Assembly: GCF_033568475.1 (NCBI RefSeq)
Contig: NC_133120.1
Coordinates: 168,733,991 to 168,797,990 of the forward strand
Direction of reading: 5' to 3'
Source: Henckelia pumila
Taxonomy: Eukaryota > Streptophyta > Magnoliopsida > Lamiales > Gesneriaceae
Length of the DNA stretch: 64,000 bases
Shown: positions 32,485 to 64,000 of the stretch, one piece after another
Layout of the letters: the number at the start of each line of letters is the position of its first letter
How positions within the stretch are numbered: the stretch's first letter is position 1
The notes under the pieces: model-generated
Database searches by the model: none
Told to the model about the DNA's origin: nothing
Seen by the model: only the letters and a program-made list of their open reading frames with translations
Translations under genes and position numbers: made by a program

Positions 32485-33184
32485 AGATATACTATAAATA
32501 TATGTATCTATTTATAATAAAGTCATATATATTATTTAGACGATAGCGTGACACTGTCGGTTGTTCTAAATAATATATTGTGATTTGAACTAACATTTAC
32601 TTTCTCGCATCTAACTTTTACTTTATCGCAACTAACATTTACTTTTCCGCAACTAACATTTACTTTCTCGCATATAACATTTACTTTTCCGCAACTAACA
32701 TTTACTTTATCGCATCTAACATAAAGTCATATATTTTATTTTGACGATAGCGTGGCTCTGCCGGTTGTTCTAAATGAAATATTGTGATTTGATCTAACAT
32801 TTACTTTTATGTCAATTTATATTTATGCATTTATATATATATTATGGGTACCATGTATTAAATATCGACTGATATTAATATAGTGAGAACTATATTATAT
32901 GATATACTTGTTTAAATATTTCATTGTTCTTTTATGTTTATTCTTATTTTAGTTTCTTTTATTTATTTTTATTAAACAATCTTAAATAAACCAACAATGA
33001 ACCTTTGAAACCTTGACAATTTTATAATTTGTGTATTTGAAGTTTTATAATAATATTTTCATCTATAATATATTATTGCTAAAATTAAACTTACAACATC
33101 CTCTCCGTGGATCGATCTCGTACTCACGAGTATATTACTTGCAGACAACCTACACTTGGGTGAATTACAATTTAAGTTGTAGCA
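32485..33184 (+). repeat. Truncated 5' LTR of F2 (last 700 bp)
   Basis: Starts inside the LTR at ATATACTATAAATATATG (compare 52388) and ends GTTGTAGCA. The U3 and TATA box are missing, so F2 has lost its own promoter. It contains the 21-bp array. Confidence 0.85.
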
Positions 33185-33190
33185 AGTTTT

Positions 33191-33208
33191 TGGCGCCGTT
33201 GCCGGGGA
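33191..33208 (+). other. F2 primer-binding site, tRNA-Asp type
   Basis: TGGCGCCGTTGCCGGGGA, six bases after the LTR end. It is the intact form of the sites in elements A and E. Confidence 0.9.
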
Positions 33209-33264
33209 GGTATAAATTAAGTTTAATTTTGTTATTATGTAAATAGTATGTTGTTTTTTATTGT

Positions 33265-34527
33265 ATGATTGTTTGGAGTCGTAAACAAAGTGGTAGACTT
33301 GTTCGAGTAACTGAAAATATTTTAAACATGGACGATAATTCTAATAATCAAGATGATAATAATAATAATCATCATCATCAAGAACATGAACAACCAAGAA
33401 CACTTAGGCACCATATGAATCCAATAAGAACTAGTACACCATCTTGTTTAGTTTTTCCTCCTGATGCATCTAATTTCAATTTTAAGCCACAAGTCATTCA
33501 ACTTTTACCAAATTTTCATGGCTTAGATTCTGAAAATCCATATTTGCATTTAAGAGAATTTGAGGAGGTTTGCAACACTTATAATGATCAAAATTGTAGC
33601 ATGGATACTGTTCGATTAAAGCTTTTCCCTTTTTCCTTAAAAGATAAAGCTAAAACATGGTTGCAAAATTTGAGATCAAGTTCAATAAGATCATGGGAAG
33701 AAATGCAACAACAATTTCTAAAAAAGTTTTTTCCTTCCCATAGAACAAACTCTTTTAAAAGACAAATTACAACTTTTTCTCAAAAACAAGGGGAAACATT
33801 TTATCAATGTTGGGATAGATATAAAGAGTTACTTAATACATGCCCACATCATGGTTTTGAAATATGGAGAATAGTTTCTCACTTTTATGAAGGTTTAATA
33901 CCTAAAGATAGGCAAATGATAGAATTCATGTGTAATGGAACTTTTGAAGATAAAAACCCAAATGAAGCTATGGAATATTTGGAGTCATTAGCAGAAAATG
34001 CTCAAAATTGGGATAATATAGGCTCAATTGAACCACCAAGTAAAACCAATAATTCAACAAATGGGGGTGGTATTTATCATCTTAAAGATGATGTAGATGT
34101 TCAAGCTAAACTTGCATCTTTAGCAAGAAAAATTGAGTCATTAGAAATGAAAAAGAGTGATCAATTAAAAAGTGTTCAAGAAATTGTTTGTCATATATGT
34201 GACACACATGATCATCTTACAAAAAATTGTCCTACTTTGCCTTCATTTAAAGAATGTCTCCATGAACAAGCCAATTATGTTAACAATTTTAAAAAACCAA
34301 CATTAGATCCTTTTTCACAAACATACAATCCTGGTTGGAGAAATCATCCCAATTTTAGTTGGAGGAACGATAATAATGCACAACCTTCACAACAACCTTT
34401 TCAAAATAACCAAAATCATCAAGGTTATGCTCCTTATATCCCACCTCCAAGAAAAAATTTTGAAGATGAAATTCATGCATACATTCAAAAGCAAGAGTCA
34501 TCAATATTCAAAACATTCAATCTATGA
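33265..34527 (+). CDS. F2 gag (frameshifted off its pol)
   Basis: 420 aa. Asn/His-rich N-terminus, capsid-type domain at about 75-240 ([39 protein letters not shown]), and zinc knuckle [14 protein letters not shown] near 310-323. A Pro/Asn-rich part follows ([12 protein letters not shown], a motif shared with element A gag). In F4 the same region runs without a stop into pol. Here one base is missing near 34499 (GAGTCATC versus GAGTCTATC), so the last residues are out of frame. Gag would assemble the particle and bind RNA. Confidence 0.9.
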
Positions 34528-37500
34528 ATGATTTGAAAGAAACTCTTGCAAAATTTGCATCTGCACTTAATATTCATGAAAAAGGAAAATTTCCATCTCA
34601 ACCACAACCTAATCCTAAAAATCAAAATCAAGAAAAATTTGATCAAGTAAAATCTGTTATTACTCTTAGAAGTGGTAAAATAGTTAATGATCCATATAGT
34701 GATGAAAACAAAGATCAGTCAAACTCAAAGAGTAAGGATGAAAATCTTGATACTTTCGAGAAAGATGATACTTTGAGTCCTAAGATTAAGAAAGTTGATG
34801 ATAAATTATCTGAAATAATATGTGAGTCAAATAAACATGTTCCTTTCCCTCATGCATTAGTTAATAATAAAAAACAAAAAAATGATTCTGATATTTATGA
34901 AGTTTTTAAACAAGTAAAAATAAATATTCCATTATTAGATGCTATTAAACAAGTGCCTTCTTATGCAAAGTTTTTAAAAGATTTATGTACTGTAAAAAGA
35001 CAATTGCATGTAAAGAAGAAAGCATTCTTAACGGAGCAAGTAAGTTCTATTATTCAAAATAATTCTACTTTGAAATATAAAGATCCCGGTTGTCCAACAA
35101 TTTCATGTATTATTGGAAAAAATAAAATTAAAAAAGCTTTGTTAGATTTGGGAGCAAGTGTGAATTTAATTCCTTATTCAGTTTATGAAAAGCTTAAGTT
35201 GGGAGATTTAAAACCTACATCTGTTACTCTTTTACTAGCCGATAGGTCAATCAAAATACCTAGAGGTATCGTAGAAGATGTGTTAGTTCAAGTCGATAAA
35301 TTCATATATCCTGTGGATTTTATTGTCTTGGATACACAACCAATAGAAGTACATAACGAAATTCCAGTAATATTGGGACGTCCATTTCTAGCAACTTCAA
35401 ATGCTTTAATTAATTGTCGAAATGGAATAATGAAATTGTCTTTTGGAAATATGACTTTAGAACTTAATGTGTTCAATTTATGTAAACAACCAAGTATTAA
35501 TGAAGATGAAGATGATAATGCAATAGAAACAATTGTGGAAGAAAATATACACCAAGAAAACTTAAATCAACAATCTGAAGTTTGTTTAGTGGAAAGTTTT
35601 GATTCAAAAAATGTTTTTAAATCAAAGTTATTTGAAGAAATTAATGAACTTGAAGAAGTAAAAGAAAATGATCATCCAAAACTTGAATTAAAACCCTTGC
35701 CAATAGAACTAAAATATGCTTTTCTTGGTGAAAATCAAACATATCCTATTGTAATATCTTCTACCCTCTTACCAAAACAAGAAGAAGATTTAATAACACT
35801 ACTTAAAAAACACAAAAATGCAATTGGATGGACTTTGCAAGATATAAAAGGTATAAATCCTTTAATCTGCACACATAGAATTCATTTGGAAGAAAATGCT
35901 AAAACATATCAACAACCACAAAGAAGATTAAATCCACACATGAAAGAAGTTGTTAAAAATGAAGTTTTAAAACTATTAGATGCCGGAATTATTTATCCAA
36001 TCTCGGATAGTAAATGGGTAAGTCCAACACAAGTAGTACCAAAAAAATCAGGCATCACTGTTATAAAAAATGAAAAGGGAGAATTATTACAAGCTAGGAT
36101 TCCATCTAGTTGGCGTATGTGCATTGATTATAGAAAATTAAATGATGCAACTAGAAAAGATCACTTTCCGTTACCATTTTTAGATCAAATTTTAGAGAAA
36201 GTGGCAGGTAATCCTTATTATTGTTTTCTTGATGAGTATTCGGGGTATTATCAAATACCAATATCATTAGAAGATCAAGAAAAAACTACTTTCACTTGTC
36301 CGTTCGGAACTTTTGCTTTTAAAAGAATGCCATTTGGTTTATGTAATGCCCCGGCTACTTTTCAAAGATGCATGCTAAGTATTTTTAGTGACATGATTGA
36401 AGAATTTGTGGAAGTTTTTATGGATGATATAACTGTTTTTGGAAACTCATTTGAAAACTGTCTTAAAAATTTGGAAGAAGTTTTAAAAAGATGTGAAGAA
36501 AAAAATCTTGTTTTAAATTGGGAAAAATGTCACTACATGGTTAAATCCGGAATTGTGTTAGGGCATGTCATATCTGAAAAAGGAATTGAAGTTGATAAAG
36601 CTAAGGTTGATGTTATTGCTAATCTACCATCACCAAACACGATCAAAGAAATTCGATCATTTTTGGGTCATGCGGGATTTTATAGAAGATTTATAAAAAA
36701 TTTTAGCATAATATCGAAACCAATTTCAAATCTTTTAACAAAAGATGCACAATTTGAATGGACTCAAGAATGTGAAACTGCTTTTAAAAAAATAATTAAT
36801 CTTTTAACTACATCACCTATTTTACAACCTCCTGATTGGTCTTTACCATTTGAATTAATGTGTGATGCAAGTGATTATGCTGTAGGAGCCGTGTTAGGAC
36901 AAAGAAAAGAAGGTAAACCTTATGTGATCTATTATGCAAGTAGAACCTTAAATAGTGCTCAAATCAATTATTCAACAACTGAAAAAGAATTACTTTCAGT
37001 AGTGTTTGCATTAGATAAATTTCGATCCTATTTAATTGGTTCTACTACTATTGTTTACACTGATCATTCTGCCATAAAATATTTATCAAATAAACAAGAT
37101 GCTAAGCCGAGATTAATAAGATGGATTTTGTTGTTACAAGAATTTGATCTTGTAATAAAAGATAAAAAAGGAAAAGAAAATGTAGTAGCCGATCATTTAT
37201 CAAGAATAATTTCTAAATCATCTCAAAATGAAATACCAATAAATGAAAATTTTCCGGATGATCAACTATTTTATGCTACTACTATGCCTTGGTTTGCTAA
37301 TATTGTAAATTTTCTTGTGACAAATAAAATGCCTTCTCATTGGAGTTCACAAGATAAAAATAAATTCTTGAAAGAGGTCAAAAAATTTTATTGGGATGAT
37401 CCTTATTTGTTTAAGTATTGTCCTGATCAAATTTTTCGACGATGCATAACCGACAATGAGGTAAGTAGTGTCATTAAATTTTGTCATTCTGAGGCATGTG

Positions 37501-38573
37501 GAGGTCATTTTTCGTCAAAGAAAACAGCTGCAAAAATCTTTCAATGTGGATTTTATTGGCCTTCTTTATTCAAAGATACACATTCATTTTGCAAATCTTG
37601 TGAAAATTGTCAGAAAATAGGTTCAATTTCAAAACGAAACATGATGCCTTTAAATCCAATCATGATTATTGAAATATTTGACAGTTGGGGAATAGATTTT
37701 ATGGGTCCATTTCCATTATCTTTTGGATTCACTTATATTTTAGTAGCTGTCGATTATGTTTCAAAATGGATTGAAGCAATTGCATGTAGAACTAATGATC
37801 ATAAAGTTGTGATAAAATTTTTGAAAGAAAATATTTTTAGTCGATTTGGAATACCTAGAGCTATAATAAGTGATGGGGGAAGTCATTTTATAAATAAATC
37901 ATTTTCTTCGTTGTTAAGAAAATATGGTATTACACATAAAGTTTCTACTCCATATCACCCTCAAACGAATGGTCAGGTTGAACTTGCAAATAAAGAAATA
38001 AAACAAATTTTGGAAAAAACAGTCAATCCAAATCGAAAAGATTGGTCTTTAAGATTAAGTGATGCATTATGGACATATAGAACTGCATTTAAAACATCAT
38101 TGGGGATGTCACCATATAGATTAGTTTTTGGAAAGCATTGTCATTTACCTGTTGAAATTGAACATAAAGCTTATTGGGCAATTAAAGCATTTAATACTAA
38201 TTTAGATGATGCATGTAAATCAAGAAAATTGCAATTAAATGAACTAGAAGAATTAAGAAATGATGCATATGAAAATGCAAAGATTTATAAAGATAAAACA
38301 AAAGCATTTCATGATAAAAATATTATGAGAAAATCTTTTGAAATCGGACAAAAAGTTTTACTTTATAATTCTCGCTTGCATTTGTTTCCAGGAAAACTTA
38401 GATCGCGATGGTCTGGACCATTTATTGTTAAATTTGTCTATCCTCATGGTGTTGTTGATGTTGAAAATCCTAAAAATAATAATGTATTTAAAGTTAATGG
38501 GCAAAGACTTAAACCGTTTATAGAAAATGAAGTTCTTAATGAAGAGTTTATGCCTTTATATGATCCAACTTAA
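34524..38573 (+). CDS. F2 pol: protease, RT, RNase H, integrase
   Basis: 1,349 aa ORF that opens at a Met near the frameshift. Order: ITLRSGKIV linker; protease with intact [10 protein letters not shown] (about 35142) and [17 protein letters not shown] with [11 protein letters not shown] and catalytic VFMDDITVF (about 36416); RNase H with [30 protein letters not shown] and TDHSAIKYL; integrase zinc-binding HSEACGGH...CENCQK (about 37484-37615), then [19 protein letters not shown] and [11 protein letters not shown], giving the D, D, E triad. No chromodomain. All catalytic motifs look intact in this copy; only the gag-pol frameshift and missing 5' U3 would stop it. It could in principle supply enzymes in trans if expressed. 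Confidence 0.92.
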
Positions 38574-38719
38574 TTGTTACTTATATTTTTATTTTATTTT
38601 TGCAGAATTGAGTTCACTTCCCGGTTAAGTGGCGGATAACGGTACTCCGTGACTACTTTCAGTCGGTTTTATTTCAATTTCCCAAAATAATTGAATATAT
38701 ATATATATAAATATATATT
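38574..38719 (+). promoter_or_regulatory. Pol to NABP-like spacer with TATA-rich stretch
   Basis: 146 bp. A stem-prone GGTTAAGTGGCGGATAACG / ACTCCGTGACTACTTTCAGT part is followed by a (TA)n run (38696-38717) that abuts the next ATG. The same spacer occurs at 53953-54098 and 58022-58165. It may drive or lead the downstream gene; no experimental cue is in the sequence. Confidence 0.35.
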
Positions 38720-39106
38720 ATGGATGAAGCTATCAAAAAACTTGGTAAATATTTTCCATCTGTTTCTAAAAAAGTTCTGAGAATGATTTATGAAGGCAGA
38801 TGTGAAAGATTGAGAATGCTTATACAAAAAGGAATCCCGGAGGATATTCGTCTTATAATTGAAGCCAAGGTTCGATTAGGTGGTGAAGTTCCAAAATTCT
38901 TACTTGTTCGAAATATGTCTGGACTAGGAAAAAGTACCTATGCGAAGAAAAGAAGGGCTAAAAGGTTAGATGTTTGTCATAATTGTGCCAGATGGACTTG
39001 TAATAGACAATGCAGATCTTTGGGATATGTTTCCACAAATAGAGAAGATAAAATTGATTTCATTAAGAATGGGCTGAGTAAAGAGTCATTGGATGATATC
39101 TCATTG
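38720..39106 (+). pseudogene. NABP-like cargo gene of F2, 5' part (split by element D)
   Basis: Residues 1-129 of the 183-aa protein found intact at 54099-54650 and 57470-58021. It contains the basic motif GKSTYAKKRRAKR (70-82) and the cysteine cluster C86, C89, C94, C98. Element D inserted after codon 128-129; the ORF then runs six codons into D's LTR and stops. The 3' part is at 48960-49124. See the intact copy for the family discussion. Confidence 0.85.
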
Positions 39107-41610
39107 TGTAACACCCGGTATTTTTAATTACATAAATCCGCCTGCATAATTAGGATAATTAATTATTTAAATTTTATGATTTATGGGTTAAATAATTATG
39201 TGAATTATTTATGCATGATTTAATTCATTTTTAAGCATTTAACCCATAATTAGTAATTTTTATGATTTTTAGTATTTTTATTATTTGATCGCGTAGACGG
39301 GACCGTGGACGGACGAGATGACGACTTTCCACCCAAATTATTTTATGAACCTTTTTAGAGCCTTAAAATATTATTTTGAGTTTTATTATCTCAAAATTTT
39401 AAGTATTTAATTTTATTTAATTTTAGGGGTCATTTTTATCCAAAATTAGTCAAAATACTGACTTTTTAGTATTTTTAAAATTCCCCTAAATTAATATTTC
39501 GAGATTTATTTTATGTTATCTTATTTTTTTAGTTTAATTAGGGGTTTAAGTTGTATATTAATTATTTAAAACCTTTTTATATTTAATTATTTAACCTATA
39601 TTTTAATTAACACCAAAAATAAAACCTATTCTACCTAAAACCCTATTCTAGCCGATCACTCCAAGCTCCCAGCCGTCACCCCACTGTTCATCATCTTCTC
39701 CAATCGGTCTTCAGCCCTAAAACTCCATAGGAGGTCGGTTTTCGAAGGTTCCAAGCAAGCCAAGGCATCCCGTCGTCGTCCCGTCGTCCCGAAGCCCGTC
39801 GTACACGCTTTTAGCTCTATAAATCGGTATTAAGGCATGTTTCTATTCACTTTTTAATCCTATATCAGTGTATGTATGTGTGTGGGTGTGTAGTACCGAG
39901 ACTCATCTTTTTGACAGCACGTTTCTTTCAAAATTTGTTCTCTCAAGCACTCGGTTTTGGTTTGTGATTGCATGCTCACGTTTTTCATGTCCATGGCTAG
40001 GTGGGCTGCTGGTCCATGGTTAGAAAGGTTCTTTGGGGTCCCTAGGGTCGAGTGGCAGGGTCAGACACGGGTTGGAACGGGCTAGGACCGGTCTGGTTCG
40101 AGATGAACCATGACTGCCCGTTTTCTGCTGCGCAGGCTAGGGTTCGTGGAAGAGGTTTCGGTGTAGGCTAAGGGGACAGCATGGGGTTCGGGCCAGGGTA
40201 TGGTTCGAACCGGCAGGACCCTGGGGAGGTCCTGCCGACGGGGCTCCGGCCACGGTGGCCAGAGCTGGGCTACAGCAGGCCGTGAAGGCCTGCTGCTCGT
40301 GCGGCCGAGACAAGGAGGGAAAGGTAAGGTAGGGTTTCGGGTTCTAGGGTTTGACTTGGATCCGGGTCGGGTCAGGTGGTCCGGGTCGGGTCTAAAATAA
40401 GATGGGTTAAGTTAAGTGGGTCCGGGTCCGGGTTATTTTAATTGGGCTCGGGTATTTTTATTTTTAAGTCTTTAAGTTAATTAGGAATTAAATGGACTAA
40501 TTAAATTCCCAAAAATTTAATTAGTACCATTTAATTTATTTGGGTTCCATTAAATTATTTTGGGTTATTTTAGTTATTTTTGGGCTTTTAATAATTTTTA
40601 TTTAAGTTTTTAAGTTGGCCAGAAATTTTTATGGGCTTGGGAGCCCATGAAAGTTATTGGGCCTATTATTGGGCTTTTGGGCCCATTGGGCCAGGGACAG
40701 TGTTATTGGGCCTAATTTAGTCTTAATGGGCTTTGGTTGATTTATGGGCCAAGTCTTAAGTTAATGGGCTTGCAGGTCTAGGGCCAGTAGATGTATCAAA
40801 CCATGAGAAATTTGCGTGTGTCCCGAGTTTATATTTAATTATTTTTATGCATGAAAAGTTATTTGAATATTTATATGATATTAAAAAATAAATTAAATAT
40901 AAATGAAGGACACACAATTTATTTAAGTACATGCATTCATGAAATCAATTTTTATGCTATGATTGAATTTCTATGGTTGAGCAAATAAAATATTTCAGGT
41001 GGAAATTGAAGTAGTGTGGCCATTTATGTATGAGCAGTTTCTGCCATTTATGTATGGGCAGTTTTCTGCCATTTATGTATGGGTGGTTCGCCACCAGCCT
41101 CGTACGATGGTTTCTTAGACTGATCAGTCGCACTATGGGTCACACTTACGGATAGGACCATTCGATGTTAAGAAAATAAATGCTCAACAACTCTAGTATG
41201 TATGATATTATGTATGTTATGTATGTTTATTTATGTAAGTTATGTTATGTAATTTTTAAGCATGCTCATTCATGTATATGTATGTATTAGTATTAAATTG
41301 ATTTAAATTATTTTTAAACCCTTGTTAGTATGCATGTTGGGCCTCTAGGCTCACTACACTGTTATGGTGCAGGTGAGTACGTAGAGGAGCAGGTTACTCC
41401 TACCGGTGGTGAGGATGTATGAGCAGCGCTGCAGTAGCCCCGTGACCGTGACAGCTTCTGAGTCACCGTGCATGTTGTCATGATACATTTTAATTATTTT
41501 ATTTATGCATTATATTTTTAATTATTGTTTTGACTCAGATGGTTATTTAAAAGAATGCATTTTTCTTAAGTATTTAAATATTTATTTATTAGAGAGTTAG
41601 GGTCGTTTCA
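39107..41610 (+). repeat. 5' LTR of element D
   Basis: 2,504 bp. TATA box CTCTATAAATCGG at 39818-39824. Contains a (GTCGTCC)-type short repeat (about 39771-39800) that differs in copy number between the LTRs, and a triplicated CCATTTATGTATGGGCAG unit at about 41020-41090. ORF 40200-40400 recurs in the 3' LTR and shows no domain. Confidence 0.95.
39818..39824 (+). promoter_or_regulatory. TATA box of element D 5' LTR
   Basis: CTCTATAAATCGGTATT; the same at 47162-47168 in the 3' LTR. Confidence 0.6.
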
Positions 41611-41612
41611 GT

Positions 41613-41624
41613 TGGTATCAGAGC
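41613..41624 (+). other. Element D primer-binding site, tRNA-iMet type
   Basis: TGGTATCAGAGC two bases after the 5' LTR end. Confidence 0.9.
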
Positions 41625-41795
41625 ACGGTCCTTGGAGGGGTCACTACTGCTATGCTAGCTCAGAAATCCACGCTACCGGTCTGTAAGTTTTAATGTTTAT
41701 AGTATGATTTAATTTCTAGAATTTAAAGTTAGCCTTAATTTTAAACACTTAGTTATGCATGGCGATTTACGTAAATAAATATGTGGTGGTGCAGA

Positions 41796-42860
41796 ATGCC
41801 TCCCAGACAAGTGAACCGACGTGGGAGACCTCCACATCCACCTCCACCTCCACCGCCACCTCAGCAGCACCCCATGACAGCACTGGAGCAGGCCAGTGCC
41901 ACGATGATGGCGGGTATTACTGCTCTGTTGGAGCAGCAGGCTGCCCGTCCCAGAATGTCCCATGAGGAGGACGTCGCAGAGAGGTTCCAGAAGAAGGGGC
42001 CTAAGGAGTTTTTGGGGACCACCGATCCTTTGGTGGCTGAGGGATGAATTCGCTCTCTTGAGTCCATCTTCGACTATATGGGGATCACAGACATCGACAG
42101 GGTGAGCTGTGTGACGTACATGATGCGAGGCGATGCAGCCCTTTGGTGGGAGGGTGCAGTTAGAGGGGTCCATCTACCTACACTGACGTGGGCTGAGTTC
42201 AGGCGTATCTTCTACGCCAAGTATTTCACTGAGGATGTGCGCAGTCGCATGATCCGGGAGTTCATGAGTCTCCGTCAGGGGGACAGATCTGTTGTGGAGT
42301 ACGTGAGCCAGTTTGAGAGGGGCTGTCACTTTGTGCCCATGATTGCTGATAGTCCGCAGGAGAAGCTGCGACAGTTTGTGGAGGGCCTGAAGGCTGAGAT
42401 CAGGCATGACGTGCGTATGGCAGACGTCTTTACATATGAGTCTGCAGTCAGCAGGGCCTTGCGTTCCGAGGAGGGACGGAGAGAGATACATAGAGAGCAG
42501 CAGGGTAAGAGGCAGTTTATGCAGACAGGGTATCAGCGACCATCTTCGCAGCCACCTGCGAAGAAGCAGTCTACAGGGCCATCTAAGGGCCCGAATCAGC
42601 AGAGGCCTCAGGGGAAGCCACAGCAGCAGACTAGGGGCGGGGCCCCTACTCCAGGGAGATATCCAGTATGTCCGAAGTGCCAGAAGATGCATTCCGGGCA
42701 GTGTCTATTTGGAGCAGGAGTCTGCTATCGCTGCAAGGAGCCAGGGCATCAGATTGCCAACTGCCCGCAGAGGCAGAACGTCAGTGGGCGAGTGTATGTG
42801 ATGCAGGCAGAGGAGGCAGACCCAGATACCTCCTTGATCACCGGTATACCTAACCCCTAG
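41796..42860 (+). pseudogene. Element D gag, one in-frame stop
   Basis: The start chosen is MPPRQVNRRGRP at 41796, just after the upstream Met at 41781 in the same frame. A proline run is followed by the capsid domain (FLGTTDPLVAEG, then YMMRGDAALWWEGAV, WAEFRRIFYAKYFTEDVR, FMSLRQGDRSVVEYV), a Gln-rich linker, and zinc knuckle CYRCKEPGHQIANC near 42724-42765. TGA at 42045 replaces the Trp expected after VAEG (TGG to TGA). The frame ends at TAG 42858, but a GT at 42844 probably starts an intron that would remove that stop and join gag to protease. Confidence 0.88.
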
Positions 42861-43039
42861 AACTTTTTCAATTCTTTGCTTTTGTTTAATTTCGATTATA
42901 TCTGAATGCCTGTTACATGAGTTTAATTATCAGCATGCTAGAATAAGAATTTTGTTTCTTTGTGATTAGAATTAAGGATTTTAGTGTTTTAACCTTGGGA
43001 GCATAGTGGTGTGAATTGTTGGGAATCTTCTGCGTGCAG
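42844..43039 (+). other. Putative spliceosomal intron between gag and protease of element D (196 nt)
   Basis: Starts G|GTATACC, ends CTGCGTGCAG|GG, is AT-rich, and sits in otherwise contiguous coding sequence. Joining 42843 to 43040 (phase 1) gives ITGRILVGGNSTFALLD, a smooth gag-protease junction, and shifts from frame 0 to frame 1, where pol lies. Element B, a relative, reads gag to protease without such a gap. Confidence 0.6.
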
Positions 43040-46413: not shown

Positions 46414-46444
46414 GTACTTTAATTTCGAGGACGAAATTCAATTT

Positions 46445-46458
46445 AAGAGGGGGAGAAT
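46445..46458 (+). other. Polypurine tract of element D
   Basis: AAGAGGGGGAGAAT directly before the 3' LTR. Confidence 0.85.
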
Positions 46459-48954: not shown

Positions 48955-48959
48955 CATTG

Positions 48960-53087: not shown

Positions 53088-53094
53088 AGTTTTA

Positions 53095-53952: not shown

Positions 53953-54098
53953 TTGTTACTTATATTTTTATTTTATTTTTGCAGAATTGAGTTCACTTCC
54001 CGGTTAAGTGGCGGATAACGGTACTCCGTGACTACTTTCAGTCGGTTTTATTTCAATTTCCCAAAATAATTGAATATATATATATATAAATATATATT

Positions 54099-54650
54099 AT
54101 GGATGAAGCTATCAAAAAACTTGGTAAATATTTTCCATCTGTTTCTAAAAAAGTTCTGAGAATGATTTATGAAGGCAGATGTGAAAGATTGAGAATGCTT
54201 ATGCAAAAAGGAATCCCGGAGGATATTCGTCTTATAATTGAAGCCAAGGTTCGATTAGGTGGTGAAGTTCCAAAATTCTTACTTGTTCGAAATATGTCTG
54301 GACTAGGAAAAAGTACCTATGCGAAGAAAAGAAGGGCTAAAAGGTTAGATGTTTGTCATAATTGTGCCAGATGGACTTGTAATAGACAATGCAGATCTTT
54401 GGGATATGTTTCCACAAATAGAGAAGATAAAATTGATTTCATTAAGAATGGGCTGAGTAAAGAGTCATTGGATGATATCTCATTGACTCTTGAGACGCAT
54501 TCTAGTGGAGATGTACAAGGTCAACTTCTCCGTTTATGGAAACTATTCCAAGTGCAGCGTCATGGTGATGGTCTTGGGAATCTGACTAAAAAAGACCCTA
54601 TTTGCCAATTTATAAGAAAATTGGATGGTAAGCCAACCCTCGACTCATAA
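54099..54650 (+). CDS. NABP-like cargo protein (flexivirus nucleic-acid-binding-protein type), intact copy in F3
   Basis: 183 aa. N-terminal helix-forming region (1-60) with YEGRCERLRML and GIPEDIRLIIEAKVRLGG. Then VRNMSGLGKSTYAKKRRAKR (63-82), very basic, and a cysteine cluster CX2CX4CX3C (C86, C89, C94, C98). After this, REDKIDFIKNGLS and a C-terminal tail of about 60 residues without known motif. The basic-plus-Cys arrangement and the GxSTYAxxRRA-like string resemble the small Cys-rich nucleic-acid-binding proteins of carla-, viti- and allexiviruses, several of which suppress RNA silencing. The resemblance is judged from memory, without a search. A host-derived zinc-finger gene is the alternative. 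No known Athila protein fits this position; env-like ORFs differ. Confidence 0.75.
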   Translation: MDEAIKKLGKYFPSVSKKVLRMIYEGRCERLRMLMQKGIPEDIRLIIEAKVRLGGEVPKFLLVRNMSGLGKSTYAKKRRAKRLDVCHNCARWTCNRQCRSLGYVSTNREDKIDFIKNGLSKESLDDISLTLETHSSGDVQGQLLRLWKLFQVQRHGDGLGNLTKKDPICQFIRKLDGKPTLDS

Positions 54651-54788
54651 ATATTGAAGGAACACTGTGAGCCACAATCACATCACTGTTTATACGCATG
54701 CATGTTATTATTATATTATTTTTTTTTACTATTTTCATCATTTTGTTCACATCTGTATTCCTATTTATGTCTTATTCCTTGTTTTCCT

Positions 54789-54795
54789 TATAAAA
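54789..54795 (+). promoter_or_regulatory. Putative core promoter TATA of LOG-3
   Basis: TATAAAA followed by CACTCAACTCTCTCTATA, as before the other LOG copies. Confidence 0.5.
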
Positions 54796-54838
54796 TCACT
54801 CAACTCTCTCTATATTTTTTAAAAGAAAAGAAAAAAAC

Positions 54839-55479
54839 ATGACAGGATCTTCTTCACAAAAATTGAAAAATATTTGTGTCTTTTGTGGTTCTAATACTGG
54901 AAAGAATGAAATATTTGTTGATGCAGCAATTAATCTTGGAAAAAATTTAGCAGAGAGAAAAATTCACTTGGTTTACGGAGGAGGCAATATTGGGTTAATG
55001 GGATCTATTTCAACAGCAGCTCATCTTGGAGGTAGTCAGGTTTTGGGTATTATTCCTACAGCTTTAGCTGAAGGAAATATTACAGGTGTTACGGTTGGAG
55101 AAGAGTTGAAAGTTTCATCAATGTACGAGAGAATAACTAAAATGATAGAAAATTCTGATGCTTTTATTGCCTTACCTGGTGGTTTTGGTACTTTAGAAGA
55201 AATTTTTCATGTTGTTTCTTGGGCACAACTTAATATCCATAATAAACCTGTGTTGGCTTGTTGAATATCAATAACTATTATGATGGTTTGTTGACTTTTC
55301 TCGATGTAGCCGTGGAACAAAATTTTATTTCAGAAAATTCACGAAGGATGCTCATCTCTGCTTCGAATGAAGACCAATTAATTGATGATCTCCAAGCTTT
55401 TGTTCATCAACCTGATTCAGCTATAACAAAGATCAATTGGTCTCAACCAACCAGTAAGAAAAGAAAACTGGATCATTGA
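54839..55479 (+). pseudogene. LOG copy LOG-3, frameshifted
   Basis: Identical in layout to LOG-1 up to NKPV. There two extra bases (CTGTGTTGG for CTGTTGG, about 55251) shift the frame; the first ORF ends at 55264 and the remaining 70 codons, including SKKRKL, continue from 55258 in another frame. The catalytic signature PGGFGTLEE lies before the break, but the C-terminal third would be lost. It is the only LOG copy of four that is broken. Confidence 0.9.
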
Positions 55480-56046
55480 TTCAACATGTCATGAAATGGT
55501 TTGTGTTTGTTCCTCATCTTCAATAATTCCAGGTGATATCTCTTTCATCATGTACTCTTTATTTTTCTTAAAAAAAAAAAAATTAAAAACAATGTCATAT
55601 TCAGGTTTGGGGGAGGGTTTATCTCTAAAAAAAAAAAAAAAAAAAATTTAAAATTTTTTTAAAAAAATATATTTCTATAATAATATTTATTTTTCTTTTT
55701 CAATGGCAGAGTAAGGAGTAAAAAACTCCTGACACGCATTAGTTTTTATTTATCATCTTATCACAATAGATTAGATTTTAATATTCCGTATATATTTAAA
55801 TTGCAAACTACTAAGAAAATGAAGTCTTTTTGTATAGATGTTTATTTATTCTTCTTTTTATCAATTTAATAGAAAATATATAATTGATGGGATATAAGTT
55901 ATAAATAATATATAATTGTGTGTTTTCAAATACATATTTTCTAAAACTTTTATGTGTATATAATTAAAGTGATATTGATTGAATAAATAATAACATGTAT
56001 AATTGAGGGAATTAATTTGTAAAAGTGCAATAGTTACTCACATAAA
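55480..56046 (+). other. F3 post-LOG untranslated region (left arm end of the palindrome)
   Basis: Matches 49954-50521. Ends ACTCACATAAA at 56046, followed by a 30-nt spacer TTTTGTGAGTGAGG... that is the continuation of the plus copy. Confidence 0.8.
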
Positions 56047-56076
56047 TTTTGTGAGTGAGGGGTAAGAATTGAGAAA

Positions 56077-56641
56077 TTTATGTGAGTAACTATTGCACTT
56101 TTACAAATTAATTCCCTCAATTATACATGTTATTATTTATTCAATCAATATCACTTTAATTATATACTCATAAAAGTTTTAGAAAATATGTATTTGAAAA
56201 CACACAATTATATATTATTTATAACTTATATCCCATCAATTATATATTTTCTATTAAATTGATAAAAAGAAGAATAAATAAACATCTATACAAAAAGACT
56301 TCATTTTCTTAGTAGTTTGCAATTTAAATATATACGAAATATTAAAATCTAATCTATTGTGATAAGATGATAAATAAAAACTAATGCGTGTCAGGAGTTT
56401 TTGACTCCTTACTCTGCCATTGAAAAAGAAAAATAAATATTATTATAGAAATATATTTTTTAAAAAAAATTTTAAATTTTTTTTTTTTTTTTTTAGAGAT
56501 AAACCCTCCCCCAAACCTGAATATGACATTGTTTTTAATTTTTTTTTTTTTAAGAAAAATAAAGAGTACATGATGAAAGAGATATCACCTGAAATTATTG
56601 AAGATGAGGAACAAACACAAACCATTTCATGACATGTTGAA
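56077..56641 (-). other. F4 post-LOG untranslated region, truncated
   Basis: Matches 31137-31691. Contains T/A runs (56471-56494, 56541-56552) and the GGGGGAGGG motif (about 56507). ORF 56420-56632 is low-complexity and antisense. Confidence 0.7.
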
Positions 56642-57280
56642 TCAATGATCCAGTTTTCTTTTCTTACTGGTTGGTTGAGACCAATTGATCTTTGTTATAG
56701 CTGAATCAGGTTGATGAACAAAAGCTTGGAGATCATCAATTAATTGGTCTTCATTCGAAGCAGAAATGAGCATCCTTCGTGAATTTTCTGAAATAAAATT
56801 TTGTTCCACGGCTACATCAAGAAAAGTCAACAAACCATCATAATAGTTATTGGTATTCAACAAGCCAACAGGTTTATTATGGATATTAAGTTGTGCCCAA
56901 GAAACAAAATGAAAAATTTCTTCTAAAGTACCAAAACCACCAGGTAAGGCAATAAAAGCATCAGAATTTTCTATCATTTTAGTTATTCTCTCGTACATTG
57001 ATGAAACTTTCAACTCTTCCCCAACCGTAACACCTGTAATATTTCCTTCAGCTAAAGCTGTAGGAATAATACCCAAAACCTGACTACCTCCAAGATGAGC
57101 TGCTGTTGAAATAGATCCCATTAACCCAATATTGCCTCCTCCGTAAACCAAGTGAATTTTTCTCTCTGCTAAATTTTTTCCAAGATTAATTGCTGCATCA
57201 ACAAATATTTCATTCTTTCCAGTATTAGAACCACAAAAGACACAAATATTTTTCAATTTTTGTGAAGAAGATCCTGTCAT
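56642..57280 (-). CDS. LOG-type cytokinin-activating phosphoribohydrolase (copy LOG-4)
   Basis: 212 aa, intact. Two residue differences from LOG-1: V125F (FHFVSWAQ) and I143T or nearby (LLNTNNYY). PGGFGTLEE, R98 and SKKRKL are kept. V125F is four residues after the signature, so a mild effect is possible. TATAAAA on the minus strand at plus 57324-57330. Lies in the right arm of the F3/F4 palindrome, so a transcript through both arms would pair it with LOG-3. Confidence 0.92.
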   Translation of the reverse strand: MTGSSSQKLKNICVFCGSNTGKNEIFVDAAINLGKNLAERKIHLVYGGGNIGLMGSISTAAHLGGSQVLGIIPTALAEGNITGVTVGEELKVSSMYERITKMIENSDAFIALPGGFGTLEEIFHFVSWAQLNIHNKPVGLLNTNNYYDGLLTFLDVAVEQNFISENSRRMLISASNEDQLIDDLQAFVHQPDSAITKINWSQPTSKKRKLDH

Positions 57281-57323
57281 GTTTTTTTCTTTTCTTTTAA
57301 AAAATATAGAGAGAGTTGAGTGA

Positions 57324-57330
57324 TTTTATA
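57324..57330 (-). promoter_or_regulatory. Putative core promoter TATA of LOG-4
   Basis: TTTTATA on plus, followed on minus by CACTCAACTCTCTCTATA; conserved with the other copies. Confidence 0.5.
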
Positions 57331-57469
57331 AGGAAAAAAAGGAATAAGACAGAAATAGGAATACAGATGTGAACAAAATGATGAAAATAGTAAAAAAAAT
57401 AATATATAATAATAACATGCATGCGTATAAACAGTGATGTGATTGTGGCTCACAGTGTTCCTTCAATAT

Positions 57470-58021
57470 TTATGAGTCGAGGGTTGGCTTACCATCCAAT
57501 TTTCTTATAAATTGGCAAATAGGGTCTTTTTTAGTCAGATTCCCAAGACCATCACCATGACGCTGCGCTTGGAATAGTTTCCATAAACGGAGAAGTTGAC
57601 CTTGTACATCTCCACTAGAATGCGTCTCAAGAGTCAATGAGATATCATCCAATGACTCTTTACTCAGCCCATTCTTAATGAAATCAATTTTATCTTCTCT
57701 ATTTGTGGAAACATATCCCAAAGATCTGCATTGTCTATTACAAGTCCATCTGGCACAATTATGACAAACATCTAACCTTTTAGCCCTTCTTTTCTTCGCA
57801 TAGGTACTTTTTCCTAGTCCAGACACATTTCGAACAAGTAAGAATTTTGGAACTTCACCACCTAATCGAACCTTGGCTTCAATTATAAGACGAATATCCT
57901 CCGGGATTCCTTTTTGCATAAGCATTCTCAATCTTTCACATCTGCCTTCATAAATCATTCTCAGAACTTTTTTAGAAACAGATGGAAAATATTTACCAAG
58001 TTTTTTGATAGCTTCATCCAT
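57470..58021 (-). CDS. NABP-like cargo protein, intact copy in F4
   Basis: 183 aa, the same length as at 54099-54650, with only a few residue differences (for example NMSG to NVSG near 65, QVQ to QAQ near 152). The basic motif GKSTYAKKRRAKR and C86, C89, C94 and C98 are unchanged. It lies 148 bp after the pol stop and 189 bp before LOG-4. The (TA)n run directly precedes the ATG. Two intact, nearly identical copies in inverted orientation support a real gene and not chance. Confidence 0.78.
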   Translation of the reverse strand: MDEAIKKLGKYFPSVSKKVLRMIYEGRCERLRMLMQKGIPEDIRLIIEAKVRLGGEVPKFLLVRNVSGLGKSTYAKKRRAKRLDVCHNCARWTCNRQCRSLGYVSTNREDKIDFIKNGLSKESLDDISLTLETHSSGDVQGQLLRLWKLFQAQRHGDGLGNLTKKDPICQFIRKLDGKPTLDS

Positions 58022-58165
58022 AATATATATTTATATATATATATTCAATTATTTTGGGAAATTGAAATAAAACCGACTGAAAGTAGTCACGGAGTACCGT
58101 TATCCGCCACTTAATCGGGAAGTGAACTCAATTCTGCAAAAATAAAATAAAAATATAAGTAACAA

Positions 58166-61100
58166 TTAAGTTGGATCATATAAAGGCATAAACTCTTCAT
58201 TAAGAACTTCATTTTCTATAAACGGTTTAAGTCTTTGCCCATTAACTTTAAATACATTATTATTTTTAGGATTTTCAACATCAACAGCACCATGAGGATA
58301 GACAAATTTAACAATAAATGGTCCAGACCATCGCAATCTAAGTTTTTCTGGAAACAAATGCAAGAGAGAATTATAAAGTAAAACTTTTTGTCCGATTTCA
58401 AAAGATTTTCTCATAATATTTTTATCATGAAATGCTTTTGTTTTATCTTTATAAATCTTTGCATTTTCATATGCATCATTTCTTAATTCTTCTAGTTCAT
58501 TTAATTGCAATTTTTTTGATTTAGATGCATCATCTAAATTAGTATTAAACGCTTTAATTGCCCAATAAGCTTTATGTTCAATTTCAACAGGTAAATGACA
58601 ATGCTTTCCAAAAACTAATCTATATGGTGACATCCCCAATGATGTTTTAAATGCAGTTCTATATGCCCATAATGCATCACTTAATCTTAAAGACCAATCT
58701 TTTCGATTTGGATTGACTGTTTTTTCCAAAATTTGTTTTATTTCTTTATTTGCAAGTTCAACCTGACCATTCGTTTGAGGGTGATATGGAGTAGAAACTT
58801 TATGTGTAATACCATATTTTCTTAACAACGAAGAAAATGATTTATTTATAAAATGACTTCCCCCATCACTTATTATAGCTCTAGGTATTCCAAATCGACT
58901 AAAAATATTTTCTTTCAAAAATTAATTATCACAACTTTATGATCATTAGTTCTACATGCAATTGCTTCAATCCATTTTGAAACATAATCGACAGCTACTA
59001 AAATATAAGTGAATCCAAAAGATAATGGAAATGGACCCATAAAATCTATTCCCCAACTGTCAAATATTTCAATAATCATGATTGGATTTAAAGGCATCAT
59101 GTTTCGTTTTGAAATTGAACCCATTTTCTGACAATTTTCACAAGATTTGCAAAATGAATGTGTATCTTTGAATAAAGAAGGCCAATAAAATCCACATTGA
59201 AAGATTTTTGCAGCTGTTTTCTTTGACGAAAAATGACCTCCACATGCCTCAGAATGACAAAATTTAATGACACTACTTACCTCATTGTCGGGTATGCATC
59301 GTCGAAAAATTTGATCAGGACAATACTTAAACAAATAAGGATCATCCCAATAAAATTTTTTGACCTCTTTCAAGAATTTATTTTTATCTTGTGAACTCCA
59401 ATGAGAAGGCATTTTATTTGTCACAAGAAAATTTACAATATTAGCAAACCAAGGCATAGTAGTAGCATAAAATAGTTGATCATCCGGAAAATTTTCATTT
59501 ATTGGTATTTCATTTTGAGATGATTTAGAAATTATTCTTGATAAATGATCGGCTACTACATTTTCTTTTCCTTTTTTATCTTTTATTACAAGATCAAATT
59601 CTTGTAACAACAAAATCCATCTTATTAATCTCGGCTTAGCATCTTGTTTATTTGATAAATATTTTATGGCAGAATGATCAGTGTAAACAATAGTAGTAGA
59701 ACCAATTAAATAGGATCGAAATTTATCTAATGCAAACACTACTGAAAGTAATTCTTTTTCAGTTGTTGAATAATTGATTTGAGCACTATTTAAGGTTCTA
59801 CTTGCATAATAGATCACATAAGGTTTACCTTCTTTTCTTTGTCCTAACACGGCTCCTACAGCATAATCACTTGCATCACACATTAATTCAAATGGTAAAG
59901 ACCAATCAGGAGGTTGTAAAATAGGTGATGTAGTTAAAAGATTAATTATTTTTTTAAAAGCAGTTTCACATTCTTGAGTCCATTCAAATTGTGCATCTTT
60001 TGTTAAAAGATTTGAAATTGGTTTCGATATTATGCTAAAATTTTTTATAAATCTTCTATAAAATCCCGCATGACCCAAAAATGATCGAATTTCTTTGATC
60101 GTGTTTGGTGATGGTAGATTAGCAATAACATCAACCTTAGCTTTATCAACTTCAATTCCTTTTTCAGATATGACATGCCCTAACACAATTCCGGATTTAA
60201 CCATGTAGTGACATTTTTCCCAATTTAAAACAAGATTTTTTTCTTCACATCTTTTTAAAACTTCTTCCAAATTTTTAAGACAGTTTTCAAATGAGTTTCC
60301 AAAAACAGTTATATCATCCATAAAAACTTCCACAAATTCTTCAATCATGTCACTAAAAATACTTAGCATGCATCTTTGAAAAGTAGCCGGGGCATTACAT
60401 AAACCAAATGGCATTCTTTTAAAAGCAAAAGTTCCGAACGAACAAGTGAAAGTAGTTTTTTCTTGATCTTCTAATGATATTGGTATTTGATAATACCCCG
60501 AATACTCATCAAGAAAACAATAATAAGGATTACCTGCCACTTTCTCTAAAATTTGATCTAAAAATGGTAACGGAAAGTGATCTTTTCTAGTTGCATCATT
60601 TAATTTTCTATAATCAATGCACATACGCCAACTAGATGGAATCCTAGCTTGTAATAATTCTCCCTTTTCATTTTTTATAACAGTGATGCCTGATTTTTTT
60701 GGTACTACTTGTGTTGGACTTACCCATTTACTATCCGAGATTGGATAAATAATTCCGGCATCTAATAGTTTTAAAACTTCATTTTTAACAACTTCTTTCA
60801 TGTGTGGATTTAATCTTCTTTGTGGTTGTTGATATGTTTTAGCATTTTCTTCCAAATGAATTCTATGTGTGCAGATTAAAGGATTTATACCTTTTATATC
60901 TTGCAAAGTCCATCCAATTGCATTTTTGTGTTTTTTAAGTAGTGTTATTAAATCTTCTTCTTGTTTTGGTAAGAGGGTAGAAGATATTACAATAGGATAT
61001 GTTTGATTTTCACCAAGAAAAGCATATTTTAGTTCTATTGGCAAGGGTTTTAATTCAAGTTTTGGATGATCATTTTCTTTTACTTCTTCAAGTTCATTAA

Positions 61101-63477
61101 TTTCTTCAAATAACTTTGATTTAAAAACATTTTTTGAATCAAAACTTTCCACTAAACAAACTTCAGATTGTTGATTTAAGTTTTCTTGGTGTATATTTTC
61201 TTCCACAATTGTTTCTATTGCATTATCATCTTCATCTTCATTAATACTTGGTTGTTTACATAAATTGAACACATTAAGTTCTAAAGTCATATTTCCAAAA
61301 GACAATTTCATTATTCCATTTCGACAATTAATTAAAGCATTTGAAGTTGCTAGAAATGGACGTCCCAATATTACTGGAATTTCGTTATGTACTTCTATTG
61401 GTTGTGTATCCAAGACAATAAAATCCACAGGATATATGAATTTATCGACTTGAACTAACACATCTTCTACGATACCTCTAGGTATTTTGATTGACCTATC
61501 GGCTAGTAAAAGAGTAACAGATGTAGGTTTTAAATCTCCCAACTTAAGCTTTTCATAAACTGAATAAGGAATTAAATTCACACTTGCTCCCAAATCTAAC
61601 AAAGCTTTTTTAATTTTATTTTTTCCAATAATACATGAAATTGTTGGACAACCGGGATCTTTATATTTCAAAGTAGAATTATTTTGAATAATAGAACTTA
61701 CTTGCTCCGTTAAGAATGCTTTCTTCTTTACATGCAATTGTCTTTTTACAGTACATAAATCTTTTAAAAACTTTGCATAAGAAGGCACTTGTTTAATAGC
61801 ATCTAATAATGGAATATTTATTTTTACTTGTTTAAAAACTTCATAAATATCAGAATCATTTTTTTGTTTTTTATTATTAACTAATGCATGAGGGAAAGGA
61901 ACATGTTTATTTGACTCACATATTATTTCAGATAATTTATCATCAACTTTCTTAATCTTAGGACTCAAAGTATCATCTTTCTCGAAAGTATCAAGATTTT
62001 CATCCTTACTCTTTGAGTTTGACTGATCTTTGTTTTCATCACTATATGGATCATTAACTATTTTACCACTTCTAAGAGTAATAACAGATTTTACTTGATC
62101 AAATTTTTCTTGATTTTGATTTTTAGGATTAGGTTGTGGTTGAGATGGAAATTTTCCTTTTTCATGAATATTAAGTGCAGATGCAAATTTTGCAAGAGTT
62201 TCTTTCAAATCATTCATAGATTGAATGTTTTGAATATTGATAGACTCTTGCTTTTGAATGTATGCATGAATTTCATCTTCAAAATTTTTTCTTGGAGGTG
62301 GGATATAAGGAGCATAACCTTGATGATTTTGGTTATTTTGAAAAGGTTGTTGTGAAGGTTGTGCATTATTATCGTTCCTCCAACTAAAATTGGGATGATT
62401 TCTCCAACCAGGATTGTATGTTTGTGAAAAAGGATCTAATGTTGGTTTTTTAAAATTGTTAACATAATTGGCTTGTTCATGGAGACATTCTTTAAATGAA
62501 GGCAAAGTAGGACAATTTTTTGTAAGATGATCATGTGTGTCACATATATGACAAACAATTTCTTGAACACTTTTTAATTGATCACTCTTTTTCATTTCTA
62601 ATGACTCGATTTTTCTTGCTAAAGATGCAAGTTTAGCTTGAACATCTACATCATCTTTAAGATGATAAATACCACCCCCATTTGTTGAATTATTGGTTTT
62701 ACTTGGTGGTTCAATTGAGCCTATATTATCCCAATTTTGAGCATTTTCTGCTAATGACTCCAAATATTCCATAGCTTCATTTGGGTTTTTATCTTCAAAA
62801 GTTCCATTACACATGAATTCTATCATTTGCCTATCTTTAGGTATTAAACCTTCATAAAATTGAGAAACTATTCTCCATATTTCAAAACCATGATGTGGGC
62901 ATGTATTAAGTAACTCTTTATATCTATCCCAACATTGATAAAATGTTTCCCCTTGTTTTTGAGAAAAAGTTGTAATTTGTCTTTTAAAAGAGTTTGTTCT
63001 ATGGGAAGGAAAAAATTTTTTTAGAAATTGTTGTTGCATTTCTTCCCATGATCTTATTGAACTTGATCTCAAATTTTGCAACCATGTTTTAGCTTTATCT
63101 TTTAAGGAAAAAGGGAAAAGCTTTAATCGAACAGTATCCATGCTACAATTTTGATCATTATAAGTGTTGCAAACCTCCTCAAATTCTCTTAAATGCAAAT
63201 ATGGATTTTCAGAATCTAAGCCATGAAAATTTGGTAAAAGTTGAATGACTTGTGGCTTAAAATTGAAATTAGATGCATCAGGAGAAAAAACTAAACAAGA
63301 TGGTGTACTAGTTCTTATTGGATTCATATGGTGCCTAAGTGTTCTTGGTTGTTCATGTTCTTGATGATGATTATTATTATTATTATCATCTTGATTATTA
63401 GAATTATCGTCCATGTTTAAAATATTTTCAGTTACTCGAACAAGTCTACCACTTTGTTTACGACTCCAAACAATCAT
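58166..63477 (-). pseudogene. F4 gag-pol fusion polyprotein, frameshifted in integrase
   Basis: A single 1,520-codon ORF (63477-58915) joins gag to pol without a stop, showing the family's native layout: capsid-type gag, zinc knuckle [14 protein letters not shown] (near residue 310), ITLRSGK linker, protease LLDLGAS (near 628), RT with FMDDITVF (near 1053), RNase [10 protein letters not shown] (near 1200), and integrase zinc-binding HSEACGGH (near 1408) plus DFMGPFPLS. Two extra bases at about 58918-58928 shift the frame between the first and second catalytic Asp of integrase. The remainder is the ORF 58918-58166, which holds [19 protein letters not shown] and the C-terminus MPLYDPT. Integrase is therefore inactive; RT and RNase H appear intact. 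Confidence 0.92.
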
Positions 63478-63533
63478 ACAATAAAAAACAACATACTATT
63501 TACATAATAACAAAATTAAACTTAATTTATACC

Positions 63534-63551
63534 TCCCTGGTAACGGCGCCA
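63534..63551 (-). other. F4 primer-binding site, tRNA-Asp type
   Basis: On minus TGGCGCCGTTACCAGGGA, two changes from the F2 site. It lies six bases from the LTR end at 63558. Confidence 0.85.
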
Positions 63552-63557
63552 AAAACT

Positions 63558-64000
63558 TGCTACAACTTAAATTGTAATTCACCCAAGTGTAGGTTGTCTG
63601 CAAGTAATATACTCGTGAGTACGAGATCGATCCACGGAGAGGATGTTGTAAGTTTAATTTTAGCAATAATATATTATAGATGAAAATATTATTATAAAAC
63701 TTCAAATACACAAATTATAAAATTGTCAAGGTTTCAAAGGTTCATTGTTGGTTTATTTAAGATTGTTTAATAAAAATAAATAAAAGAAACTAAAATAAGA
63801 ATAAACATAAAAGAACAATGAAATATTTAAACAAGTATATCATATAATATAGTTCCCACTATATTAATATCAGTCGATATTTAATACATGGTACCCATAA
63901 TATATATATAAATGCATAAATATAAATTGACATAAAAGTAAATGTTAGATCAAATCACAATATTTCATTTAGAACAACCGGCAGAGCCACGCTATCGTCA
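63558..64000 (-). repeat. 5' LTR of F4, partial (window edge)
   Basis: Only the last about 443 bp of the LTR, nearly identical to 25828-26270. The ORF at 63496-63711 also appears in other LTR copies and is not a gene. Confidence 0.85.

Follow-up and report, generated by a model that had tools for sequence, protein, structure and literature searches.

A NABP-like gene and a LOG gene are carried together by an Athila-like retrotransposon of Henckelia pumila

The window analyzed here, a stretch of 64,000 nucleotides from Henckelia pumila, contains Athila-like copies in which gag-pol is followed by two further genes, and it raises the question of whether these genes belong to the element and what they might do for it. 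The copy F2, on the plus strand, begins with a 5' LTR remnant (32487-33184) that ends TTGTAGCA directly before the primer binding site TGGCGCCGTTGCCGGGGA (33191-33208), presumably of the tRNA-Asp type. A gag ORF (33265-34527; Retrotrans_gag, 7e-21) is followed by a pol ORF with protease-like, RT, RNase H and integrase regions (34524-38573), a T-rich tract with a terminal TTGCAG, a candidate splice acceptor (38590-38605), and a conserved 28-nt non-coding block (38627-38654). The NABP-like ORF comes next, its 5' part (38720-39106) separated from its 3' part (48960-49124) by a nested chromovirus-like Gypsy element on the same strand (39107-48954; LTRs 39107-41610 and 46459-48954; target duplication CATTG). 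A LOG gene of 212 aa (49315-49953), a non-coding internal region (49954-51417) and a whole 3' LTR (51418-53087), preceded by the purine tract GGTTTGGGGGTG, complete the copy.

The same genes recur in the neighboring copies. F3 (53094-56076, plus strand) is broken and retains the end of pol, an open NABP frame (54099-54650) and a LOG gene frameshifted near 55252 (54839-55476). F4 (56074-64000, minus strand) carries gag-pol (63477-58166), NABP (58021-57470), LOG (57280-56642) and a 5' LTR remnant (63558-64000). F5, another broken copy (28570-32486, minus strand), has LOG (32330-31692) and a whole LTR (28570-30237), and a further minus-strand copy (25828-28453) consists of a whole LTR (25828-27494) and a post-LOG remnant. 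The 28-nt block is found again at 54006-54033 (plus) and 58085-58112 (minus), and the stretch 53094-59026 forms a 98.5% palindrome. The ORFs and their order, gag-pol, NABP and LOG in F2, F3 and F4 with LOG in F5, are thus as an earlier note on this sequence had described them. Within the window, none of the Athila-like copies is bounded by a whole LTR at both ends, the 5' LTRs there being remnants, so the question of whether the genes lie within an LTR pair was put to the rest of the genome.

Hundreds of copies of the element with both genes are present in the 885-Mb genome; the cargo is therefore no peculiarity of one locus. In all ten copies fetched, gag-pol-NABP-LOG is flanked on both sides by LTR sequence (two with an LTR match of only 355 or 801 bp, one in tandem), and seven have a perfect 5-bp target site duplication (TSD), with LTR pairs 99.2-100% identical. 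The earlier claim that the cargo belongs to the element thus holds, although its paired-LTR form is borne out by the genome copies and not by the window. The LTRs measure about 1.67-1.8 kb, less than the ~2.6 kb that repeats inside the window might suggest, and they start ~1.45 kb past the end of LOG, so that LOG lies neither inside the LTR nor outside the element. An assembly artefact can be rejected because TSDs and LTR pairs occur in independent copies. Both genes were scored at the best-ranked 150 matches each (at least 150 exist per gene; ranking by protein score). LOG follows NABP at 182-209 bp in 116 of the 150 NABP matches listed; a LOG partner was present in 19 of 20 sampled NABP copies that had no listed LOG, and all 20 LOG copies sampled from those lacking a listed NABP proved to have a NABP partner. 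Loci chosen by motif had NABP in 15/15 cases and LOG in 12/15. Linkage elsewhere, as judged from coinciding matches of two protein searches, was dropped, since we estimate that several would be expected by chance. The NABP-like and LOG genes are parts of one Athila-like element that recurs in many independent insertions.

The LTR pair, primer binding site, purine tract, TSDs and RT-RH-INT order of gag-pol are those of a Ty3/gypsy LTR retrotransposon. Athila, Calypso and Cyclops elements share with it an extra sense-strand ORF between pol and the 3' LTR and the absence of a second RNase H, and they have a tRNA-Asp-type primer binding site, to which the one seen here may correspond. Their third ORF, however, is env-like, whereas here a NABP-like gene takes the third place and LOG the fourth, and no env-like or ATHILA ORF-1 Pfam match was found in the proteins scanned. 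By Pfam, the pol ORF contains a single RNase H region and lacks a chromodomain, which agrees with Athila as characterized in passages of PMC6317226 (neither a chromodomain nor the additional RNase H that marks Tat), where Asp is also listed among the primer tRNAs of non-chromovirus elements.

Pfam gives matches to the families behind both gene names proposed in the note, each above its curated cut-off. The LOG protein matches Lysine_decarbox (E=6.4e-39), contains the PGGxGTxxE motif and gives an AlphaFold2 model (pLDDT 87.7) whose closest structure is At2g37210 (rmsd 0.9, TM 0.95 on target). It shares fold, length, motif and Arg98 with the plant LOG enzymes At2g37210 and At5g11950, but differs from them in being multicopy within an element, in an extra C-terminal tail, in the loss of Lys99 and in its place in a tree of sampled sequences, where the element-type LOGs group together and separately from host LOGs (100/100). 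The window LOG has R98 and E121, and these residues, which we take to be catalytic, are conserved in 112 and 114 of 120 element-type LOGs, respectively. Lys99, beside Arg98, is Ile in the window; it is retained in 8/120 element-type LOGs versus 120/120 host LOGs, and the substrate or activity may therefore have changed. An EAR-like LxLxL end within the last 12 residues is present in 87 of 120 element-type and none of 120 host LOGs, and 82 of the 87 also have a basic cluster. No confirmed match to LOG was found in IMG/VR contigs.

The tail and the missing Lys99 (112/120) are what might be expected if LOG had been repurposed as a nuclear protein that recruits TOPLESS-type corepressors via LxLxL, in which the enzyme fold would be no more than a scaffold or would have a changed activity. 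We regard this as rather unlikely: LxLxL is a short motif, most active-site residues are retained, and neither the window LOG nor its nearest relatives (P0121, P0124, P0129) end in LxLxL. The window LOG ends in KKRKLDH, identical in 37 of 40 readable tails of the fetched loci, and to judge from these sequences the Henckelia pumila element has lost the LxLxL tail.

The NABP-like protein (183 aa) has a conserved CX2CX4CX3C finger and a KKRRAK patch, and it matches Viral_NABP (E=1.2e-5; 25.9 bits, cut-off 23) and Carla_C4 (E=7.2e-5; 23.1 bits, cut-off 20.9) over ~84 residues that include the basic patch. It thus resembles the NABPs of carlaviruses and allexiviruses in patch and Cys finger, but it sits in a retrotransposon, and the similarity shown is that of the matched part. 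Searches with the NABP-like protein returned no confirmed match in IMG/VR viral contigs (as single sequence or as alignment), none in plasmids and two chance-level matches in PDB. It could instead be a plain nucleocapsid-type RNA chaperone of the element that shares no ancestry with flexivirus NABPs, the Pfam match reflecting a basic patch plus a zinc finger. The E-values are weak throughout (1e-5 to 1e-8), the structure model is poor (pLDDT 57), and zf-CCHC found no match in the gag ORF that was scanned, so that NABP could supply a nucleocapsid-type function. Against this, 22 of 25 NABP relatives match both viral families at E<=0.01 over the same region. We put the chaperone at somewhat under an even chance; a viral relation would rest on weak but repeated Pfam matches.

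The TTGCAG-ended tract ahead of NABP is present in L001 too and is likely a splice acceptor. The 28-nt block is identical in another plant's element; searches for the 28-mer found none in IMG/VR and none in Rfam. RNA folding of the leader gave z-scores of -0.79 (window) and 0.05 (L001), and therefore no structure beyond that of shuffled sequences; in a second hairpin the two sequences compared differ by a single compensatory pair, which does not suffice for a claim.

Have the two genes been kept for a function? Gene capture by retrotransposons does occur, as parts of PMC7264820 document, and NABP and LOG might be neutral passengers, pieces of host genes caught once. Many copies have indels or stops, as this would predict, and three of the 15 motif-chosen loci have no LOG inside the fetched stretch. 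Among 20 low-ranked LOG copies chosen via NABP the overall ratio of nonsynonymous to synonymous variants is 0.96, with indels in 13/19, and NABP across 15 LOG-chosen copies gives 0.95. Variants common to at least two copies, however, are nonsynonymous-poor (0.41 for LOG, 0.58 for NABP), with ratios of 1.05 and 0.71 for private variants, and dN/dS between NABP and L001 is 0.36. Among the matches listed, 138/150 LOG and 127/150 NABP copies are stop-free, a count biased towards open frames by the ranking on protein score. Relatives of both genes are present in many other plants; across rosids and asterids, protein identity is 55-87% at the same length, which passengers would not be expected to show, and the catalytic residues and the finger are conserved among relatives from several plant families. 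We therefore consider neutral carriage very improbable. Here, we show that the four genes are arranged between LTRs as gag, pol, NABP-like and LOG, are copied jointly and have coding sequences conserved between families, and that NABP and LOG diverge independently of each other between subfamilies.

Our preferred reading, which we hold to be on balance probable as a whole, is a stable two-gene 3' accessory module of an Athila-like lineage, with spliced expression of both genes, a nucleic-acid-binding NABP and a nucleotide-hydrolase LOG. Retroviral env is made from a subgenomic spliced mRNA; by analogy, splicing to the TTGCAG acceptor just 5' of the 28-nt block may yield a subgenomic mRNA for NABP, and LOG may be translated from the same spliced RNA or another one. 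NABP, through its finger and KKRRAK patch, would bind nucleic acid, either the element's own RNA/cDNA or RNA in a way that counters silencing. LOG was probably taken from a plant long ago and retained since; as a nucleotide phosphoribohydrolase it would, most simply, release free cytokinin in the element-expressing cell, which could favor dividing tissue, where new insertions would be inherited. Cytokinin activation by LOG and silencing suppression by NABP are both activities that we infer from sequence. A bolder version can be imagined: a clade spanning rosids and asterids in which a captured LOG was remade into a nuclear host-manipulator (altered active site, basic-LxLxL tail, TOPLESS recruitment) and, with an RNA-binding NABP-like partner, shared acceptor and conserved RNA leader, forms a viral-style cassette. 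This we offer as speculation and think doubtful.

How new is such an element? Steinbauerova et al. 2011 (Genetica) reportedly noted two Athila-like elements resembling LOGL4. The earlier note was aware of no published element with such a cargo; LOG (YgdH) domains in Gypsy elements of Citrus and Populus, however, are already in print in sections of PMC9289625, which credits Steinbauerova 2011. Those sections are silent on a NABP-like gene, tail motif, non-coding block or function. They also describe Phalaenopsis Gypsy elements that likewise carry an active-looking enzyme gene, but a different one, an AlkB (2-ODD) m6A demethylase assayed in vitro and found only in Phalaenopsis among the genomes screened. 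A search of the open-access literature found no publication on the NABP-like gene, or the NABP-LOG pair, in plant retrotransposons. Novelty is thus partial: LOG in plant Gypsy elements was known, and what is new here, besides (as far as that search reaches) the NABP-like gene and its pairing, is the separate clade, the loss of Lys99, the LxLxL tail, the acceptor with its 28-nt block and the independent divergence of the two genes.

The extra genes of plant Gypsy elements have long been unexplained, and here the members of one such set can be recognized: a protein with the fold of a hormone-pathway enzyme and a tail of the repression type, and a zinc-finger protein resembling those of viruses. 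The set has been kept over several plant families. The role of plant retrotransposon accessory genes thereby becomes testable with single proteins. Finally, many plant genes annotated as LOG or LOGL10 may be transposon copies.

Several copies of a single Athila-like retrotransposon family, family F, are found in the right half of the window. On the + strand, copy F2 comprises a 5' LTR remnant (32487-33184), the PBS TGGCGCCGTTGCCGGGGA (from 33191), gag (33265-34527), pol (34524-38573), an NABP-like gene (start 38720), LOG (49315-49953), a non-coding stretch of ~1.46 kb and a whole 3' LTR (51418-53087); its NABP is split by a nested chromovirus-like element (39107-48954, target duplication CATTG). 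F4, on the - strand, occupies 56074-64000, up to the right edge of the window, and contains gag and pol as well as NABP (58021-57470) and LOG (57280-56642). In a third copy (53094-56076) NABP is open and LOG frameshifted, and the LOG of a fourth lies at 32330-31692 (-). The stretch 53094-59026 forms a palindrome (arms 98.5% identical, at most 24 nt between them), which may be a true inverted pair or an assembly effect. Pieces of another Gypsy element at 20845-25336 encode a pol protein ~49-61% identical to that of family F, and tblastn found neither NABP nor LOG in them. Since no copy within the window has two whole LTRs, the window by itself does not prove that the cargo sits inside the element.

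The structure, linkage, recency and conservation of the gag-pol-NABP-LOG element were observed directly in the genome. Ten LOG copies, with ranks chosen in the first 75 of the list, were taken with 10 kb upstream and ~5.5 kb downstream; NABP, gag and pol matches and LTR sequence on both sides were present in all ten (two with only 355 and 801 bp of LTR matching), and one is part of a tandem. Seven have perfect 5-bp target duplications (GTTAC, CATGT, CATAG, CCCCC, ATAGT, GCGGG, ACTGA), LTRs that start with TGATGAAACTT and end with TTGTAGCA, and a 3' LTR preceded by the tract GGTTTGGGGGTG. The proposal of the earlier note that NABP and LOG are parts of the element is thus borne out by these flanking LTRs and target duplications. 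Identity between the paired LTRs of these seven copies is 99.2-100% over 1.66-1.8 kb, which, assuming 1.3e-8 substitutions per site per year, places the insertions at about 0-0.3 million years.

Linkage of the two genes was surveyed over 884,658,702 bases in 133 contigs. First-look candidates numbered 467 for LOG and 506 for NABP, and the best 150 of each by protein score were examined; 138 LOG and 127 NABP matches lacked a stop, and in 116 of the 150 NABP matches a listed LOG follows downstream after 182-209 bp, in the same orientation. Among the listed matches 34 of each gene were unpaired, and 20 of each were fetched: LOG lay downstream of NABP in 19/20 (at the remaining locus, L044, it was not found within the fetched stretch) and NABP upstream of LOG in 20/20. 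A sample independent of the protein-score lists, 15 places chosen by a 28-nt block outside the earlier samples, had NABP downstream in 15/15 and LOG in 12/15.

This non-coding block, AAGTGGCGGATAACGGTACTCCGTGACT, lies in the pol-NABP gap behind a T-rich tract and TTGCAG (38600-38605), at 38627-38654 (+), and again at 54006-54033 (+) and 58085-58112 (-). An NABP-bearing contig, L001 (DAIEQH010000041.1), likewise carries a T-rich tract, together with CTGCAG and the identical 28 letters (1675-1702), the longest exact match between it and window 36501-39106; synonymous sites differ at 43% in NABP and 63% in integrase. The block occurs exactly 228 times in the genome, against 0 in a reversed control, and upstream in nine of the ten sampled copies, being absent from L010. 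RNA folding of the NABP leader gave no signal over shuffles. At 38673-38695 a hairpin-like TTCAATT/AATTGAA differs from TTCAGTT/AACTGAA in L001 by one compensatory pair, and folds no better than shuffles.

Compared with L001, dN/dS is 0.36 for NABP and 0.14 for integrase. Within the genome, we took nonsynonymous plus stop over synonymous variants per site (54/55 copies per gene, window copy as reference) in small, partly biased samples: for LOG the ratio was 0.72 over all variants, 0.41 among shared and 1.05 among private ones (0.26 in LOG-chosen copies, 0.96 in low-ranked NABP-chosen ones), and for NABP 0.66, 0.58 and 0.71 (0.95 in 15 LOG-chosen copies, 0.72 in low-ranked ones). These values fit constraint in the transposing lineage, then decay after insertion.

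The structure model of the window LOG (pLDDT 87.7) is nearest to At2g37210 (rmsd 0.9). In a tree of 63 rows, a 100/100 branch parts it and 48 relatives from 14 host LOGs; it joins P0121 and P0124, then P0129 (Primulina) and P0133. As the host sample comprised LOG1/LOG3 types and one LOG8-type, a host LOG of another type may be a closer relative. Among the 120 element-type matches listed, Arg98 is retained in 112 and Glu121 in 114; position 99 is K in 8 (vs 120/120 host LOGs), position 123 is F in all (vs L in 120/120), and LxLxL, given as the EAR repression consensus in published abstracts, occurs within the last 12 residues of 87 (82 also with a basic cluster) vs 0/120. The window family carries the tail KKRKLDH without LxLxL, identical in 37 of 40 readable tails of fetched loci. 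NABP has 26 positions invariant over 25 relatives, including C94 and C98, with C86 and C89 near-invariant; these cysteines (C86-C98) come after a KKRRAK patch, 22/25 relatives match both Viral_NABP and Carla_C4, and the protein is poorly modelled (pLDDT 57). In five loci (L075, L076, L079 and L083 from the block-chosen sample, and L066) NABP is 47-54% and LOG 80-97% identical to the window's, so the two cargo genes diverged independently, likely through exchange between subfamilies.

Related proteins occur in other plants. NABP had 229 relatives at E<=1, the named sources among the best 120 being Populus, Xanthoceras, Rhamnella, Acer and Orobanche; in Rhamnella P0086 the end of an Athila-type integrase, which shares 79% identity with window pol, is fused to NABP. 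In L001 NABP likewise follows integrase, and no LOG was found in ~1 kb downstream; NABP therefore occurs also without LOG. L001 is plant-like, carrying a plant-type Gypsy integrase and NABP, yet its record belongs to the MAG of a bacterium (Candidatus Nomurabacteria), probably through contamination. The 120 LOG matches listed include at least 33 from Reevesia, 10 from Diplodiscus, 8 from Xanthoceras, 4 from Populus, 2 from Paulownia and at least one each from Primulina, Melia and Parasponia, the others carrying no species name. The multicopy LOGs of Reevesia and Diplodiscus, judged from proteins rather than flanking DNA, are consistent with elements, and in Xanthoceras gene model P0122 two LOG parts flank pol sequence that shares 55% identity with that of the window. 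Populus P0155, P0176 and P0200, annotated LOGL10, appear among the element-LOG matches; P0155 and P0176 fall in the element-type clade, and LOGL10-type annotations may thus be transposon copies.

The view that no element of this kind had been described must be given up for LOG: the available text of PMC9289625 reports that consensus sequences of Gypsy elements from two Citrus species contain YgdH (LOG), as do those from Populus trichocarpa once the filter was relaxed, citing Steinbauerova 2011 for YgdH in Gypsy elements. According to the available text of PMC6317226, extra ORFs were counted only at >=250 codons, so NABP and LOG would both escape its count. No published link between an NABP-like gene and a retrotransposon was found in the literature searched; LOG in Gypsy is therefore known, and an NABP-like gene in a retrotransposon is new in that literature. 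As to how the element works, we infer every functional step: the accessory proteins would most likely be made from spliced RNA, NABP most likely acting on nucleic acid and LOG on nucleotides, while the tailed LOG relatives would perhaps act on host repression instead.
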